47,881 bases of DNA from Cytophagaceae bacterium (lineage in GTDB: Bacteria; Bacteroidota; Bacteroidia; Cytophagales; Flexibacteraceae): assembly GCA_027487695.1 (NCBI GenBank), contig JAIYDB010000044.1, positions 1 through 47,881 of the forward strand. Direction: 5' to 3'. The first letter of the stretch is position 1, and the number at the start of each line of letters is the position of its first letter. The translations under genes were made by a program, and so were the position numbers. Below are positions 9,742 to 17,786 of the stretch, piece after piece. The notes beneath the pieces are model-generated. The model made no database searches. It saw nothing but the letters and a program-made list of their open reading frames with translations, and was not told where the DNA came from.

Positions 9742-10854
9742 CTAGGCTAAAATATCCACCAGCTCGTGGTTAATGTAAAACACTTCCCTACCCACTTTTT
9801 TTTCTGATAGAATTTGGGCAGCCACCATTTCTTTAAAGTAGGCAGTTATGGTAGTTCTGGATTTAATTTGAAGAAAATCGGCAATTAAACTTGGTCTTAT
9901 ATAGGGCTGAGAAAATACCAACTCATTAATTTCTTTGGTGTACCATTTAATGCGCTCTTTGCCGTAAGCTAGGGTAGCCTCCATTTGTTTGATAATATTA
10001 TTGATAAGCTCATTCGTAAGTTGAGCCGATTTTTCAGTAGCCTCCAACATGTATAGAACCCAGTTTTTCCACTGACCACGTTGGGTAACCGCCCCTAGGT
10101 GAAAATAATAATCGTCTTTATAGGCAACAATATACTTAGATAGGTATAAAGCAGGCTGCAAAAGCAGTCCTTTTTCTATCAGAAATAGTAGGTTTAGAAT
10201 TCTCCCAGTGCGTCCGTTACCATCGTGAAAAGGGTGAATAGCTTCAAACTGATAATGAGCGACACACATTTTAATAAGAGGGTCAATAGGGTACTCTTCA
10301 TCATTTTGCATGTACTCCAACAAATTGGCAATAAGCTTTTCAATGATAGCAGTGCCCCTTGGTGGTGTATATACTACTTCACCTGCCCTAAATTCACTTT
10401 GTCCTCTTTTGATTACGGTTTGTGAGGCATCTGAACGTATGCCTATGGTGGTGTTATCTTTTACAGCTCTAAAAATATCAATGATAGCATCCTTGTCAAT
10501 TCTTCCCTTTTCTTTCAAATGGGCATAACCAGCCCACAGTGCCTCCCTGTAGCGCAATACTTCTTTGGTAGAGGTATTGGCTTTTGTTTCTTGTATGGTT
10601 TCAGATGCCGCCTTGTACAGCTCATCGTCGGTGGTGAAAATATTTTCAATGGCTGTTGATTCTTTCGCCTCTTGTAAAGCAATCGTATTCACCAACATGA
10701 GCGGATTTGGCAACCGCATAATGTTAATGTTCACCGTTGCCAACGCCCTAGATGCACTTACAAGCTTGTTCAATACCTCAATATCCTGATGGATAGGATC
10801 TTTGGTTGGCAATAAAGGTAAGTTGTTGTAGGGTTTATTGCGATCGTATGCCAT
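9742..10854 (-). CDS. Fic family protein, class II, with C-terminal winged-helix-like domain
   Basis: Fic proteins typically transfer AMP from ATP to a hydroxyl on a target protein. The full core motif HPFHDGNGRTGR lies at residues 207-218 with the catalytic His207. The self-inhibiting motif (S/T)xxxE(G/N) is present in the N-terminal region as STAIEN (66-71), which makes this class II, normally held inactive until the inhibitory Glu is displaced. Residues about 313-368 (SQPYIRPSLIADFLQIKSRT onward) look like a winged-helix DNA-binding domain, a known arrangement in this subfamily. Length 370 aa fits relatives. No small antitoxin gene is adjacent. The 70-bp repeat array and a TGTTCA/TGAACA inverted repeat lie just upstream, so autoregulation through the C-terminal domain is a fair inference. 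Confidence 0.95.
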   Translation of the reverse strand: MAYDRNKPYNNLPLLPTKDPIHQDIEVLNKLVSASRALATVNINIMRLPNPLMLVNTIALQEAKESTAIENIFTTDDELYKAASETIQETKANTSTKEVLRYREALWAGYAHLKEKGRIDKDAIIDIFRAVKDNTTIGIRSDASQTVIKRGQSEFRAGEVVYTPPRGTAIIEKLIANLLEYMQNDEEYPIDPLIKMCVAHYQFEAIHPFHDGNGRTGRILNLLFLIEKGLLLQPALYLSKYIVAYKDDYYFHLGAVTQRGQWKNWVLYMLEATEKSAQLTNELINNIIKQMEATLAYGKERIKWYTKEINELVFSQPYIRPSLIADFLQIKSRTTITAYFKEMVAAQILSEKKVGREVFYINHELVDILA

Positions 10855-10864
10855 TTTCTATACC

Positions 10865-10892
10865 TGTTCAATTTTATGTGCAATCCTGAACA
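10865..10892. promoter_or_regulatory. TGTTCA-N16-TGAACA inverted repeat just upstream of fic
   Basis: TGTTCA (10865-10870) and TGAACA (10887-10892) form perfect inverted half-sites 10-40 bp before the fic start codon. The same TGTTCA word, paired with TGGACA, recurs in every unit of the 70-bp array next door. This is a candidate operator. Confidence 0.4.
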
Positions 10893-10910
10893 TATCACAA
10901 ACTTACGTAC

Positions 10911-11246
10911 AATTTTTGGACATAAAAAGCCTATATGTTCAAAACACGAGCGAAATTGGACATATACCCCAAACATGTTGAGTAATTGGACAGATTTTAA
11001 CTATATGTTCAAAATATGAAGCAAATTGGACATATACCCCAAACGTGTTCAGTAATTGGACAGGTTTTAACTATGTGTTCAAAATATGAGGAAAATTGGA
11101 CACATACCCCAAACGTGTTCAGTAATTGGACAGGTTTTAACTATGTGTTCAAAATATGAGGAAAATTGGACTGATACCCCAAACGTGTTCAGTAATTGGA
11201 CAGGTTTTAACTATATGTTCAAAATATGAATAAAATTGGACAGATA
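10911..11246. repeat. Tandem array of 70-bp units in the fic/mutS divergent region
   Basis: Four complete 70-bp units begin at 10931, 11001, 11071 and 11141, with a partial unit before (from about 10911) and after (11211-11246). The period is exactly 70 bp, and units differ at only a few positions. Each unit holds two copies of ATTGGACA (30 and then 40 bp apart) and two copies of TGTTC, giving the imperfect palindromes TGTTCA-N15-TGGACA and TGTTCA-N5-TGGACA. There are no unique spacers, so this is not a CRISPR. It fills nearly all of the non-coding space between fic and mutS. Confidence 0.95.
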
Positions 11247-11340: not shown

Positions 11341-14022
11341 ATGGCACGTAATCCGAAACAAGCACCAATTGCAACAGACGCAGGCACTGAAGTTGAACAG
11401 TTAGATGGCGCCAAGGTTACGCCATTAATGAAGCAGTACCACGCCATAAAGGCAAAATACCCTGGGGCTTTACTGCTATTCAGAGTAGGTGATTTTTATG
11501 AAACCTTTGGCGACGATGCCGTTACCGCGGCAGGAATACTGCATATTACTCTCACCAAAAGAGCCAACGGCGCAGCAAGTGAAGTAGCCTTAGCTGGCTT
11601 CCCACACCACGCTTTAGATAACTACTTGCCTAAACTGGTAAAGGCTGGTCAGCGAGTGGCGATATGCGACCAATTAGAAGACCCTAAGTTTGCTCAAGGC
11701 ATCGTAAAAAGAGGAGTTACAGAATTAGTAACACCAGGAGTAGTACTAAGTGATCACGTACTTGAAACCCGTAGAAACAATTTCTTGGCTGCAGTTCATT
11801 ACAGCGGAACAGGCTACGGATTAGCGTTATTAGATTTAAGTACAGGCGAATTTTACGTCGCACAAGGCGCAGCAGATTACATAGAAAAACTACTTCAAAG
11901 CTTCCAAGCAAGTGAAGTATTGTACGCCAAACCACAAAAAGCACACTTCTTCGCCACCTTCGGCGATGGCTTTAATACCTTCGGTTTAGACGATTGGACT
12001 TTCCAATATGACTTTGCCCACGAAAAACTAACTACCCATTTCAATACCCTAAACCTAAAAGGTTTTGGTATTGCTGAACAACAACTAGGCATAGTAGCCG
12101 CTGGCGTTATCCTGCATTACTTAGCAGAAACTGAACATAAGCACCTTACTCATATTGCCAGTATCAGTCGGATTGAAGCCGACAGATATGTTTGGTTAGA
12201 CCGCTTCACCATTCGCAATCTGGAATTGTTGCAACCTCAACAAGAGCAAGGGATACCCCTTCTTCAAATTCTGGACGAAACCCAAACCCCAATGGGGGCA
12301 AGGTTGTTGCGCAACTGGGTAGTACTTCCCCTTAAAGATGTAAACCATATCCAAGAACGCTTAGATATGGTAGAAGCCCTTCGGGTACAAACAGAATTGC
12401 AGTTTGAACTAAGGCAATACCTCAAACAAGTAGGCGATTTAGAACGTATCATTAGTAAAGTAGCCGCCCGCCGAATTAATCCTCGGGAAATGCTAGCGTT
12501 AAAGCGTGCGCTCAAGCAAATAGGACCCATAAAGGCACTATTAGAACAAAGCGGGAAAGAAGCACTCCGCAAAATAGCCGACCAGCTAAACCCTTGCAAA
12601 CTGCTATTAGAAAAAATAGAGAATACCCTATTAGATGAAGTTCCTTTAAATGCCGCACAAGGCAATCTAATCAGAAGCGGCATTCACGCTGAACTAGATG
12701 AACTAAGAGGTATTAGCGGCACAGGCAAGGATTACTTATTGCAAATACAGCAAAGGGAAATAGAGCGAACAGGCATAAGCAGCCTCAAAATAAGCTATAA
12801 CAAGGTTTTCGGCTATTACTTAGAAGTAACCAATTCTCACAAAGAAAAGGTACCTACCGACTGGATTAGGAAACAAACCCTTGTTAATGCCGAGCGCTAC
12901 ATTACCGAGGAACTTAAAAACTACGAAGAAAAAATCCTGAATGCGGAAGGCACCATCTTGCAAATAGAACAAACCTTGTATTTGCAGTTGGTCGATTTTG
13001 CCTTGGATTATATACAGCCTGTTCAGCTTACCAGCAGACATTTGGCAGTGCTTGATTGCCTAGCGGGTTTTGCTGCAATGGCCGATGTGCGTAACTATGT
13101 AATGCCAAAACTAAGCACTGGAACCGCCCTCAATATTGAAAACGGTAGGCACCCAGTAATTGAACAACAACTACCTCACGGTGAAGTATATGTACCTAAC
13201 GACACGCTCTTAGATACAACCGACCAACAAATAATCATTATCACTGGTCCTAACATGGCAGGTAAAAGTGCCTTGCTAAGGCAAACAGCACTTATTGTGC
13301 TAATGGCTCAAATAGGCTGCTTTGTACCTGCTAAAGCTGCTGAAATTGGGATAGTAGATAAGATTTTCACCCGCGTTGGCGCATCTGATAACCTAAGTAA
13401 GGGCGAAAGTACCTTTATGGTGGAGATGACAGAAACCGCCTCTATCATCAATAACCTAAGCGAACGCAGCTTAATTTTGATGGATGAGATTGGCAGGGGT
13501 ACAAGTACTTACGATGGTGTTTCTATTGCTTGGTCAATTGTAGAATACCTACATAACCACCCAAAATATAAGGCACGCACCCTTTTCGCCACCCATTACC
13601 ACGAACTAAACGAGCTTGCCAAAGAACTACATAGAGTACGAAACTTTAATGTATCGGTAAAGCAGGTAGGTGGCAAAGTAGTTTTCTTGAGGAAGCTAAA
13701 AGCAGGTGGTAGCGAACATAGCTTCGGTATTCACGTAGCGCAAATGGCAGGTATGCCCAATGGGGTGGTGCTTCGTGCGAATGAAATCATGAAGCACTTA
13801 GAAAAAGAACATGGTGCCGCAACTCGTAAAGAAAAAGTAAAAGATATGCCAAAAGCTAACTACCAACTTAGCTTTTTTGAACCTATAAATCCTGCCCTAC
13901 ATAAGGCGCAGGAAATAATTAAGGGCTTAGATATTAACTCGCTTTCGCCAATGGAAGCCCTTATTAAGTTAAATGAAATTAAATTGCTCCTAGAAAAGGA
14001 AAACCTCCAAACTACCAAATAA
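11341..14022 (+). CDS. mutS: DNA mismatch repair protein MutS
   Basis: Recognises mismatched and unpaired bases and recruits MutL. The first ATG is at 11341; the frame extends upstream to a TTG at 11320, but the ATG matches the usual start just before PLMKQYHAIKAKYPG. The mismatch-probing motif F-Y-E is at F52-Y53-E54 (GDFYETF), Walker A TGPNMAGKS at 635-643, and Walker B ending in D715-E716 with the following GRGTST signature. Length 893 aa is normal for MutS1, so this is the repair enzyme and not MutS2. It heads a plus-strand run: rsmI begins 2 bases after its stop. Its upstream region is the 70-bp repeat array. Confidence 0.97.
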   Translation: MARNPKQAPIATDAGTEVEQLDGAKVTPLMKQYHAIKAKYPGALLLFRVGDFYETFGDDAVTAAGILHITLTKRANGAASEVALAGFPHHALDNYLPKLVKAGQRVAICDQLEDPKFAQGIVKRGVTELVTPGVVLSDHVLETRRNNFLAAVHYSGTGYGLALLDLSTGEFYVAQGAADYIEKLLQSFQASEVLYAKPQKAHFFATFGDGFNTFGLDDWTFQYDFAHEKLTTHFNTLNLKGFGIAEQQLGIVAAGVILHYLAETEHKHLTHIASISRIEADRYVWLDRFTIRNLELLQPQQEQGIPLLQILDETQTPMGARLLRNWVVLPLKDVNHIQERLDMVEALRVQTELQFELRQYLKQVGDLERIISKVAARRINPREMLALKRALKQIGPIKALLEQSGKEALRKIADQLNPCKLLLEKIENTLLDEVPLNAAQGNLIRSGIHAELDELRGISGTGKDYLLQIQQREIERTGISSLKISYNKVFGYYLEVTNSHKEKVPTDWIRKQTLVNAERYITEELKNYEEKILNAEGTILQIEQTLYLQLVDFALDYIQPVQLTSRHLAVLDCLAGFAAMADVRNYVMPKLSTGTALNIENGRHPVIEQQLPHGEVYVPNDTLLDTTDQQIIIITGPNMAGKSALLRQTALIVLMAQIGCFVPAKAAEIGIVDKIFTRVGASDNLSKGESTFMVEMTETASIINNLSERSLILMDEIGRGTSTYDGVSIAWSIVEYLHNHPKYKARTLFATHYHELNELAKELHRVRNFNVSVKQVGGKVVFLRKLKAGGSEHSFGIHVAQMAGMPNGVVLRANEIMKHLEKEHGAATRKEKVKDMPKANYQLSFFEPINPALHKAQEIIKGLDINSLSPMEALIKLNEIKLLLEKENLQTTK

Positions 14023-16937: not shown

Positions 16938-17786
16938 ATGATCAAAAGAATACTATTGCTTTTAAGCCTTTCTGTGGCTTTTTTTAGCTGTAATGACGAT
17001 AACGACGACGTTAAAGGTACCCCTACTCCAACCCCATTACCAGATACCTGCTTGCTATCAAGTTTAAATACAGGTATACCAGCAAGTTCAATTAATCTTG
17101 TTTACGATTCTGTAACCTACTTGCCTATTTCTGGAAACATTGGCACTTCTTCAAGGATTACTTACGAATACAACAACACAAATTACAAGTTAATCTCTCA
17201 GTCAACTCAAGGAGGTACCGATACAACTTCAATAATCAATATAACTGTTGATGCAGATAAAAAGGCACTTGTATTAAGCGCTAAAACACTAAACCAAGGC
17301 AATATCTTTGTTTATAGTACACAAACCCTAAGCTATAACCCTGATAAGACCTTAAAAGGTATCTCAACTTTCTCATACAGAAAGAGTGTACTTGGTGGCG
17401 CTCCTTTAGATAGCAGCTATAGCGAGGAGAAAATTTACTGGACTAACGGAAACCTAACTACCGATTCAGTTTTCACCATCTTGGATAAAGGCACGCCGCA
17501 AGAAACTAAAGTGCTTTCATTCATTAGAAGATGGGAGTTTGGTACTCAGGTAGATATTAAGGGAGTTTCTGAGTGGTTAATCAATACTACTTACATTGCA
17601 AAGCTGTTTGGCGAGCGTTCTAAGAACTTAGCCACTAAGATTATTACCCAAACGCCTACTGGCTCCACGACAGAAGTAAGGTTAAGCTTTTTGCTGAATG
17701 CTAATAAATGGCCTACTAATGTTACCCTTTCAGGAGCGCAAACTGGTGGTGCAGCTTATTCGTATACTTGCTACAAGCGTAAATAA
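16938..17786 (+). CDS. Putative surface lipoprotein, 282 aa
   Basis: I place the start at ATG 16938 rather than the upstream frame start at 16884, because the lipoprotein signal MIKRILLLLSLSVAFFSC begins there and gives the anchored Cys at residue 18. The acidic stretch NDDNDD right after the Cys resembles the lipoprotein export signal that sends Bacteroidota lipoproteins to the cell surface (known mainly from Capnocytophaga and Bacteroides). The rest is beta-rich with repeated YxYN/TYEYNN-type strands and no family I can name. A terminator follows at 17809-17835. Confidence 0.8.
   Translation: MIKRILLLLSLSVAFFSCNDDNDDVKGTPTPTPLPDTCLLSSLNTGIPASSINLVYDSVTYLPISGNIGTSSRITYEYNNTNYKLISQSTQGGTDTTSIINITVDADKKALVLSAKTLNQGNIFVYSTQTLSYNPDKTLKGISTFSYRKSVLGGAPLDSSYSEEKIYWTNGNLTTDSVFTILDKGTPQETKVLSFIRRWEFGTQVDIKGVSEWLINTTYIAKLFGERSKNLATKIITQTPTGSTTEVRLSFLLNANKWPTNVTLSGAQTGGAAYSYTCYKRK

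Follow-up and report, generated by a model that had tools for sequence, protein, structure and literature searches.

What does an array of 70-bp tandem repeats do when it lies between two divergently transcribed genes, fic and mutS, either of which it might serve? The question arises in a 47,881-nucleotide stretch of DNA from a Cytophagaceae bacterium (contig JAIYDB010000044.1 of assembly GCA_027487695.1; hereafter the window), which is one contig (C2) of a 2.89-Mb draft genome in 129 contigs (G000). A reading of the letters and open reading frames alone (the sequence-only reading) had described the array, had supposed that its repeat number might vary and had suggested that it could tune fic, mutS or both. 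Combining the anatomy of the array with a comparison of Fic loci across bacteria, we propose that it is, in all likelihood, an operator lattice through which the neighbouring SoFic-type Fic protein represses its own gene, a reading in which both binding and repression are inferred.

Anatomy of the array and of the predicted fic promoter

Tandem Repeats Finder reports the array with a period of 70 bp, 4.5 copies and 92% matches, and also gives a 140-bp reading with a score of 513. The word TTGGACA occurs in nine exact copies (starting at 10916, 10956, 10986, 11026, 11056, 11096, 11126, 11196 and 11236) at the 40- and 30-bp steps that the sequence-only reading had pointed out, and at 11166, where the array period predicts the same word, the sequence reads TTGGACT. 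The regularly placed imperfect palindromes of that reading are equally real, with TGTTCA-N5-TGGACA present three times in the array against 0.02 expected from shuffles. The feature is larger than first described: beyond the limits once given, 10911-11246, the lattice of half-sites to which the array belongs reaches to 10865, and the two half-sites nearest fic had been left out.

On the fic strand this lattice occupies positions -388 to -16, counted from the fic start, under a single spacing rule, >21<19>11<19> (Table 1). Nineteen of its 22 positions are exact TGTYCA or TGRACA words and three are degenerate (AGTCCA, TCAACA and TGTACG), while the last pair is spaced by 22 bp, not 21. The half-sites are separated by spacers of 15/16, 5 and 13 bp, the dyads of the wide and narrow pairs lie 35 bp apart, and about 11 dimer sites are predicted within one short stretch. 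The shared face of the helix that had been suggested fails on arithmetic once the whole array is considered: with 10.5 bp to a helical turn, distances of 30, 40 and 70 bp correspond to 2.86, 3.81 and 6.67 turns, so successive units do not fall on one face, and whole-turn spacing is approached by the 21-bp and 11-bp pairs only.

Table 1 Features of the fic/mutS region and of the E. coli array alleles
Feature	Position	Strand	Remarks
fic, 370 aa, SoFic-type class II adenylyltransferase; proposed lattice binder	9742..10854	-	Fic_N, Fic, winged helix
SoFic-like C-terminal winged-helix domain, residues 301-365	9760..9954	-	Pfam and model
Predicted recognition helix, residues 332-344	9823-9861	-	Within the fic winged-helix domain
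Promoter-proximal putative operator TGTTCA-N16-TGAACA	10865..10892	-	Perfect 6-bp inverted repeat; ends 10 bp before the fic start codon
TAAGTTTG, TAnnTTTG match, predicted fic promoter -7 box	10898..10905	-	13 bp 5' of half-site 10887-10892
Whole half-site lattice, 22 positions, TGTYCA (>) / TGRACA (<)	10865..11242	.	Order >21<19>11<19>, repeat 70 bp
Lattice stretch with near-identical whole 70-bp tandem copies (4.5)	10931..11246	.	Tandem Repeats Finder
Narrow pair, example: TGTCCA-N5-TGAACA, half-sites 11 bp apart	11046..11062	-	
Wide pair, example: TGTCCA-N15-TGAACA, half-sites 21 bp apart	11076..11102	-	
mutS, divergent neighbour; outside the system on present evidence	11341..14022	+	ATG at 11341
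E. coli long and short array alleles	L242 (412-931), L249, L251, L252		

The promoter box of Bacteroidota at -7 has the consensus TAnnTTTG. Searched for promoters, the fic/mutS intergenic region contains a single such box on either strand, TAAGTTTG, which is directed towards fic and sits within the lattice, where inverted repeats overlap the fic promoter that it predicts.

The product of fic is a SoFic-type class II Fic enzyme. Its three Pfam domains (Fic_N, Fic and SoFic-like_C; 4.2e-21, 1.1e-15 and 5.1e-13) are all above cut-off, the catalytic motif HPFx[D/E]GNGRxGR is intact as HPFHDGNGRTGR with core residues that are invariant in the alignment, and the inhibitory motif (S/T)xxxE(G/N) of the N-terminal domain reads STAIEN, its S and E being invariant in 69 sequences. 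A structure model (pLDDT 87.2) superposes on SoFic 3zcn with a Z score of 40.4 over 350 residues (rmsd 2.2, 33% identity), and the protein shares its three-domain architecture and fold with SoFic of Shewanella oneidensis (SO_4266) and the anti-phage family. The match to the SoFic defence model of PADLOC (1.4e-97) makes an anti-phage role a candidate function, as judged from that family model. Searches of plasmids and phages returned no relative at 60% identity or more, and this exact array therefore lacks a strain series. Sequence comparison also turned up recent structures of the SoFic family (PDB 9tb0, 9tc4, 9tch, 9tcl and 9vjc), which may contain oligomers or DNA.

Words and spacing before Fic genes

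For comparison we drew on relatives, class-wide sampling and named genomes, which together gave 181 distinct Fic loci whose upstream DNA could be used; these were divided into a close group of 39 loci (at least 54% identity) and a distant group of 142. In the 300 bp before fic, the close loci carry 20.8 half-site words per kb, against 1.49 further upstream, 1.24 in the gene and 1.07 per kb downstream, and against 0.99 per kb before the 142 distant Fic genes. At least three half-sites are present at 36 of the 39 close loci versus 1 of 142 distant ones, and many relatives have 3-8 half-sites only. Four loci (L041, L046, L053 and L070) have 70-bp tandem arrays with the words of the window before fic, and the word also precedes Fic genes of Pedobacter, Algoriphagus, Bacteroidales and one Chlorobiota MAG.

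The spacing is as regular as the words. When the locus of the window is left out, 38 loci give 183 pairs of neighbouring half-sites no more than 60 bp apart, and 163 of these stand at lattice distances (><11, 21 or 22; <>19; same-strand 29, 30, 40 or 41), where a uniform spread would give about 8, a figure that serves as a yardstick and not as a formal test, the distances having been picked after the histogram. The peaks hold 59 pairs at <>19 and 63 at ><21/22. The bases between half-sites vary from locus to locus and the distances stay constant, so that it is the spacing that is kept and not a copied sequence. The array is thus tied to Fic genes by word enrichment and spacing. Self-matching words also occur downstream of Fic genes, at 24-26% of loci; a role of the repeats as mere terminators was rejected, as lattice distances make up 14% downstream versus 50% upstream in the close group.

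The predicted promoter is part of this arrangement. The 110 bp directly before fic contain a TAnnTTTG box at 31 of the 39 close loci; among these 31, a > half-site begins exactly 13 bp after the box start at 20, a < half-site ends exactly at the box start at 17, and at least one of the two positions is occupied at 24. Half-sites at such exact positions around the box indicate an operator wrapped around the promoter, from which repression is predicted. The enrichment before 39 Fic genes, together with the overlap with the predicted promoter, suggests that the array matters for fic transcription, as had been supposed.

The same evidence bears on mutS. The sequence-only reading had found it attractive that a variable-number array might set the level of mutS, alone or with fic, and so alter the mutation rate; the array does occupy the divergent region common to both genes, its last half-site lies about 99 bp before the mutS start, and homologous arrays change in copy number (see below). 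We nonetheless regard this as extremely unlikely. Before mutS in 22 relatives, half-site words do not rise above background (0.80 per kb), the words track fic at the 38 other loci, and no TAnnTTTG box inside the region faces mutS. Nor do fic and mutS share an upstream region at any other locus fetched: at L044 the end of mutS is convergent and downstream of fic, with a separate upstream region, and L093 has a weak mutS match near fic (29% identity). Control of mutS was accordingly rejected as the main function; judged from sequence, some effect on mutS through the shared region may exist, but it would at best be an accident of position in this genome.

Beyond the close group, Fic genes are preceded by repeats of other words. 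Repeat-rich upstream regions occur at 63-72% of Fic loci versus 5-9% further upstream, and in the clusters with other words 63% of loci exceed shuffles in self-matching upstream words versus 9% further upstream. Fic proteins with ENTARKYL-type recognition helices go with ACATTAA (21 of 36 loci, none outside the cluster), those of the INTAKKYL type with CTGTCAA (9 of 12, again none outside) and those of the KTVGNYL type with AGGGCAA; L014 has a 71-bp array of 7.2 copies before fic with the word AACATTAA. Unrelated as the words are, the distances recur: of 464 upstream repeat distances, 46% measure 29-31, 39-42 or 69-72 bp, against 12% expected, and distances of this 30/40/70-bp type are seen upstream at 110 of 142 loci versus 33 of 142 further upstream. 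Before fic of Agrobacterium vitis the order is >21<19>11<20>21< with the word TGTCGA (counted by eye, five positions being confirmed separately), and Cedecea and two E. coli variants have TGTCGA/TCGACA at -168, -117, -98, -47 and -28 or a subset of these. Agrobacterium and E. coli/Cedecea, the latter two with a 70-bp period and the word TGTCGA, share the spacing rule.

Judged from sequence, the words follow the Fic lineage and not the host taxon, which makes the C-terminal domain of Fic, already favoured by the sequence-only reading, the likely binder. Identity of the winged helix is correlated with that of the Fic core (r=0.84), and although a partial correlation was attempted to separate their effects on the word, the word cannot be credited to the winged helix alone. 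Given that Fic as the binder is our inference, a different, unlinked regulator might instead bind the array and control fic. This is very unlikely, because words that vary with the Fic lineage, and not with the host taxon, would demand co-transfer of such a regulator each time; moreover, the second Fic gene of the same genome has an array with other words.

Repeat number and occurrence elsewhere in the genome

The common fic of E. coli, a member of the same SoFic family, has a 70-bp array of 7.4 copies in front (L242:412-931; E. coli FDAARGOS_403). Among 5,426 complete E. coli genomes, fic is present in 278 and the array in 233; in 216 of the 233 the match covers at least 80% of the 629 bp upstream, with a span of exactly 629 bp among the matches listed, and 17-18 of the 233 have a short form of 489 bp. 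In the one short form compared in full, the difference is a single deletion of 140 bp, or two units, with zero other mismatches. Over 49 kb of sequence elsewhere, a single base separates the isolates AVS0713 (short) and AVS0533 (long). In E. coli, then, the number of units seems to change on the time scale of a clone, with the qualification that assembly may collapse repeats. That repeat number can vary, as had been supposed, is therefore borne out in E. coli homologues, the species of the window being represented by one genome.

In AVS0713 the array lies in an island at tRNA-Leu (L251:22822-40663) whose genes include a DNA cytosine methyltransferase, a phosphorothioate-DNA restriction endonuclease, a MobH relaxase and an integrase. 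A gene for a small helix-turn-helix regulator (L242:75-371) is directly upstream of the E. coli array and stands beside it in the five identical long alleles and the short-allele genomes that were read. Like the variable-number repeats of contingency loci, these arrays consist of head-to-tail units whose number varies among near-identical isolates, here E. coli isolates carrying the homologue; unlike them, the unit is a structured set of operators with selected spacing and not a simple sequence repeat.

Within the 2.89-Mb genome of the window, a search for further copies of the 70-bp unit found none beyond one copy of three half-sites, so that units are not spread all over the genome and a dispersed repeat element is ruled out. 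The wide-pair pattern occurs at six places, five of them within the region of the array and the sixth on contig C107, and the <19> pattern at eight, seven in the array and the eighth at the same place on C107. It is almost certainly wrong to see the array as functionless, be it a neutral expansion of repeats, a repetitive element or an artefact of assembly: a draft in 129 contigs may misstate the exact unit number, but the unit is not dispersed, half-site spacing is kept at 38 other loci despite differing intervening bases, and the excess of repeats before Fic genes recurs across the comparison set.

The C107 site (17445-17491; L002, about 1502-1549) reads TGTCCA-N16-TGGACA-N13-TGTTCA, that is >22<19>, and obeys the lattice rule too well for chance. 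It lies in 1.1 kb of non-coding DNA; about 140-180 bp further on comes a gene for an enoyl-CoA hydratase and, after it, one for a tyrosyl-tRNA synthetase (names assigned from sequence). A leftover beside a fic remnant was dismissed, as tblastn with all Fic proteins found no remnant near the site, which may be a second Fic target or a relic. On C114, the second Fic gene of the genome has an array upstream, and again directly downstream, with a 115-bp period, a 42-bp sub-period and the words TATAAGTAT/TATAG (L031:1202-1464 and 2583-2806).

Proposed autorepression, precedents and meaning

In the reading that we propose, the C-terminal winged helix would bring Fic dimers onto the inverted TGTYCA/TGRACA half-sites. 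The -7 box would be enclosed by sites that reach from about -388 to -16, and their occupancy would block RNA polymerase, a negative autoregulation holding a potentially toxic AMPylating enzyme at a low level. Wide (21/22 bp) and narrow (11 bp) pairs set 19 bp apart may let several dimers pack side by side, and duplicated 70-bp units would add dimers and make repression sharper or deeper. Toxin levels in the phd/doc and AbiE systems are limited in a comparable way, several inverted repeats of the toxin's own promoter being occupied cooperatively; the present locus differs in being without a separate antitoxin gene, and both the inhibitory helix and the DNA-binding domain are part of the enzyme.

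Negative autoregulation by Fic dimers is proposed on the precedent of CccR of Yersinia pseudotuberculosis, a class II Fic protein that represses itself and whose C-terminal helix-turn-helix (HTH) binds to an inverted repeat within the promoter of its own gene; on deletion of CccR its promoter rises 3.3-fold, and dimerization is required (PMC9755527). Both are class II Fic proteins with a C-terminal HTH, and in both a toxic AMPylating enzyme would be kept low by autoregulation. CccR, however, is a T6SS effector with little sequence similarity to the SoFic family, and its operator has two 10-bp arms around a 26-bp spacer, as opposed to up to 22 short half-sites at 11-, 19- and 21-bp spacing in 70-bp units here. 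That arm spacing is not matched by the shorter spacers of the lattice, so the operator geometry is different and the geometry of the dimer must differ too.

Further points stand against autorepression: the array is far longer than simple repression needs, and the one C107 site is away from any fic. Such length would suit an arrangement in which the array acts as a safety catch, holding Fic as DNA-bound, inactive or deAMPylating dimers until loss or modification of DNA during phage attack frees active enzyme, with unit number setting how many Fic molecules are held. About 11 dimer sites exceed what promoter occlusion requires, the SoFic defence model matches the protein, and CbFic2 of Coxiella burnetii, likewise a class II Fic with a DNA-binding C-terminal HTH, is reported to turn from AMPylation to deAMPylation on DNA-induced dimerization (PMC10628234). 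CbFic2 differs in that random DNA only was tested, host histones are the proposed target and no operator is described (PMC10628234). With the toxic and regulatory activities of CccR independent of each other (PMC9755527), and with 3-8 half-sites at many relatives sufficing for a promoter operator, we consider the safety catch unlikely.

Autorepression remains the reading that we prefer. Among class II Fic proteins with an HTH, the searchable literature, which excludes preprints and most subscription papers, yielded CccR and CbFic2 as the only precedents and no description of upstream Fic arrays or a spaced lattice; a description of the lattice may exist elsewhere. As of PMC10628234, there was no experimental demonstration that SoFic binds DNA. 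Class II comprises about 80% of Fic proteins, and nearly nothing is known, according to the authors, about how their activity is modulated (PMC9755527). It is a long shot that SoFic-type Fic proteins across phyla assemble as ordered multimers on cognate 70-bp lattices before their own genes, and that these lattices are the missing off-switch of the class; if true, the enzyme would be kept on DNA in an inactive or deAMPylating form, release would come upon DNA damage or invasion, and unit number would be an adjustable threshold.

From a spacing rule common to Bacteroidota, Agrobacterium and E. coli, binding sites can be predicted across an entire family of toxic or defence enzymes, and the lineage-specific words provide natural material for working out how DNA is read by the recognition helix. 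The E. coli arrays offer, in a workable species, a testable link between repeat number and the expression of a defence enzyme.
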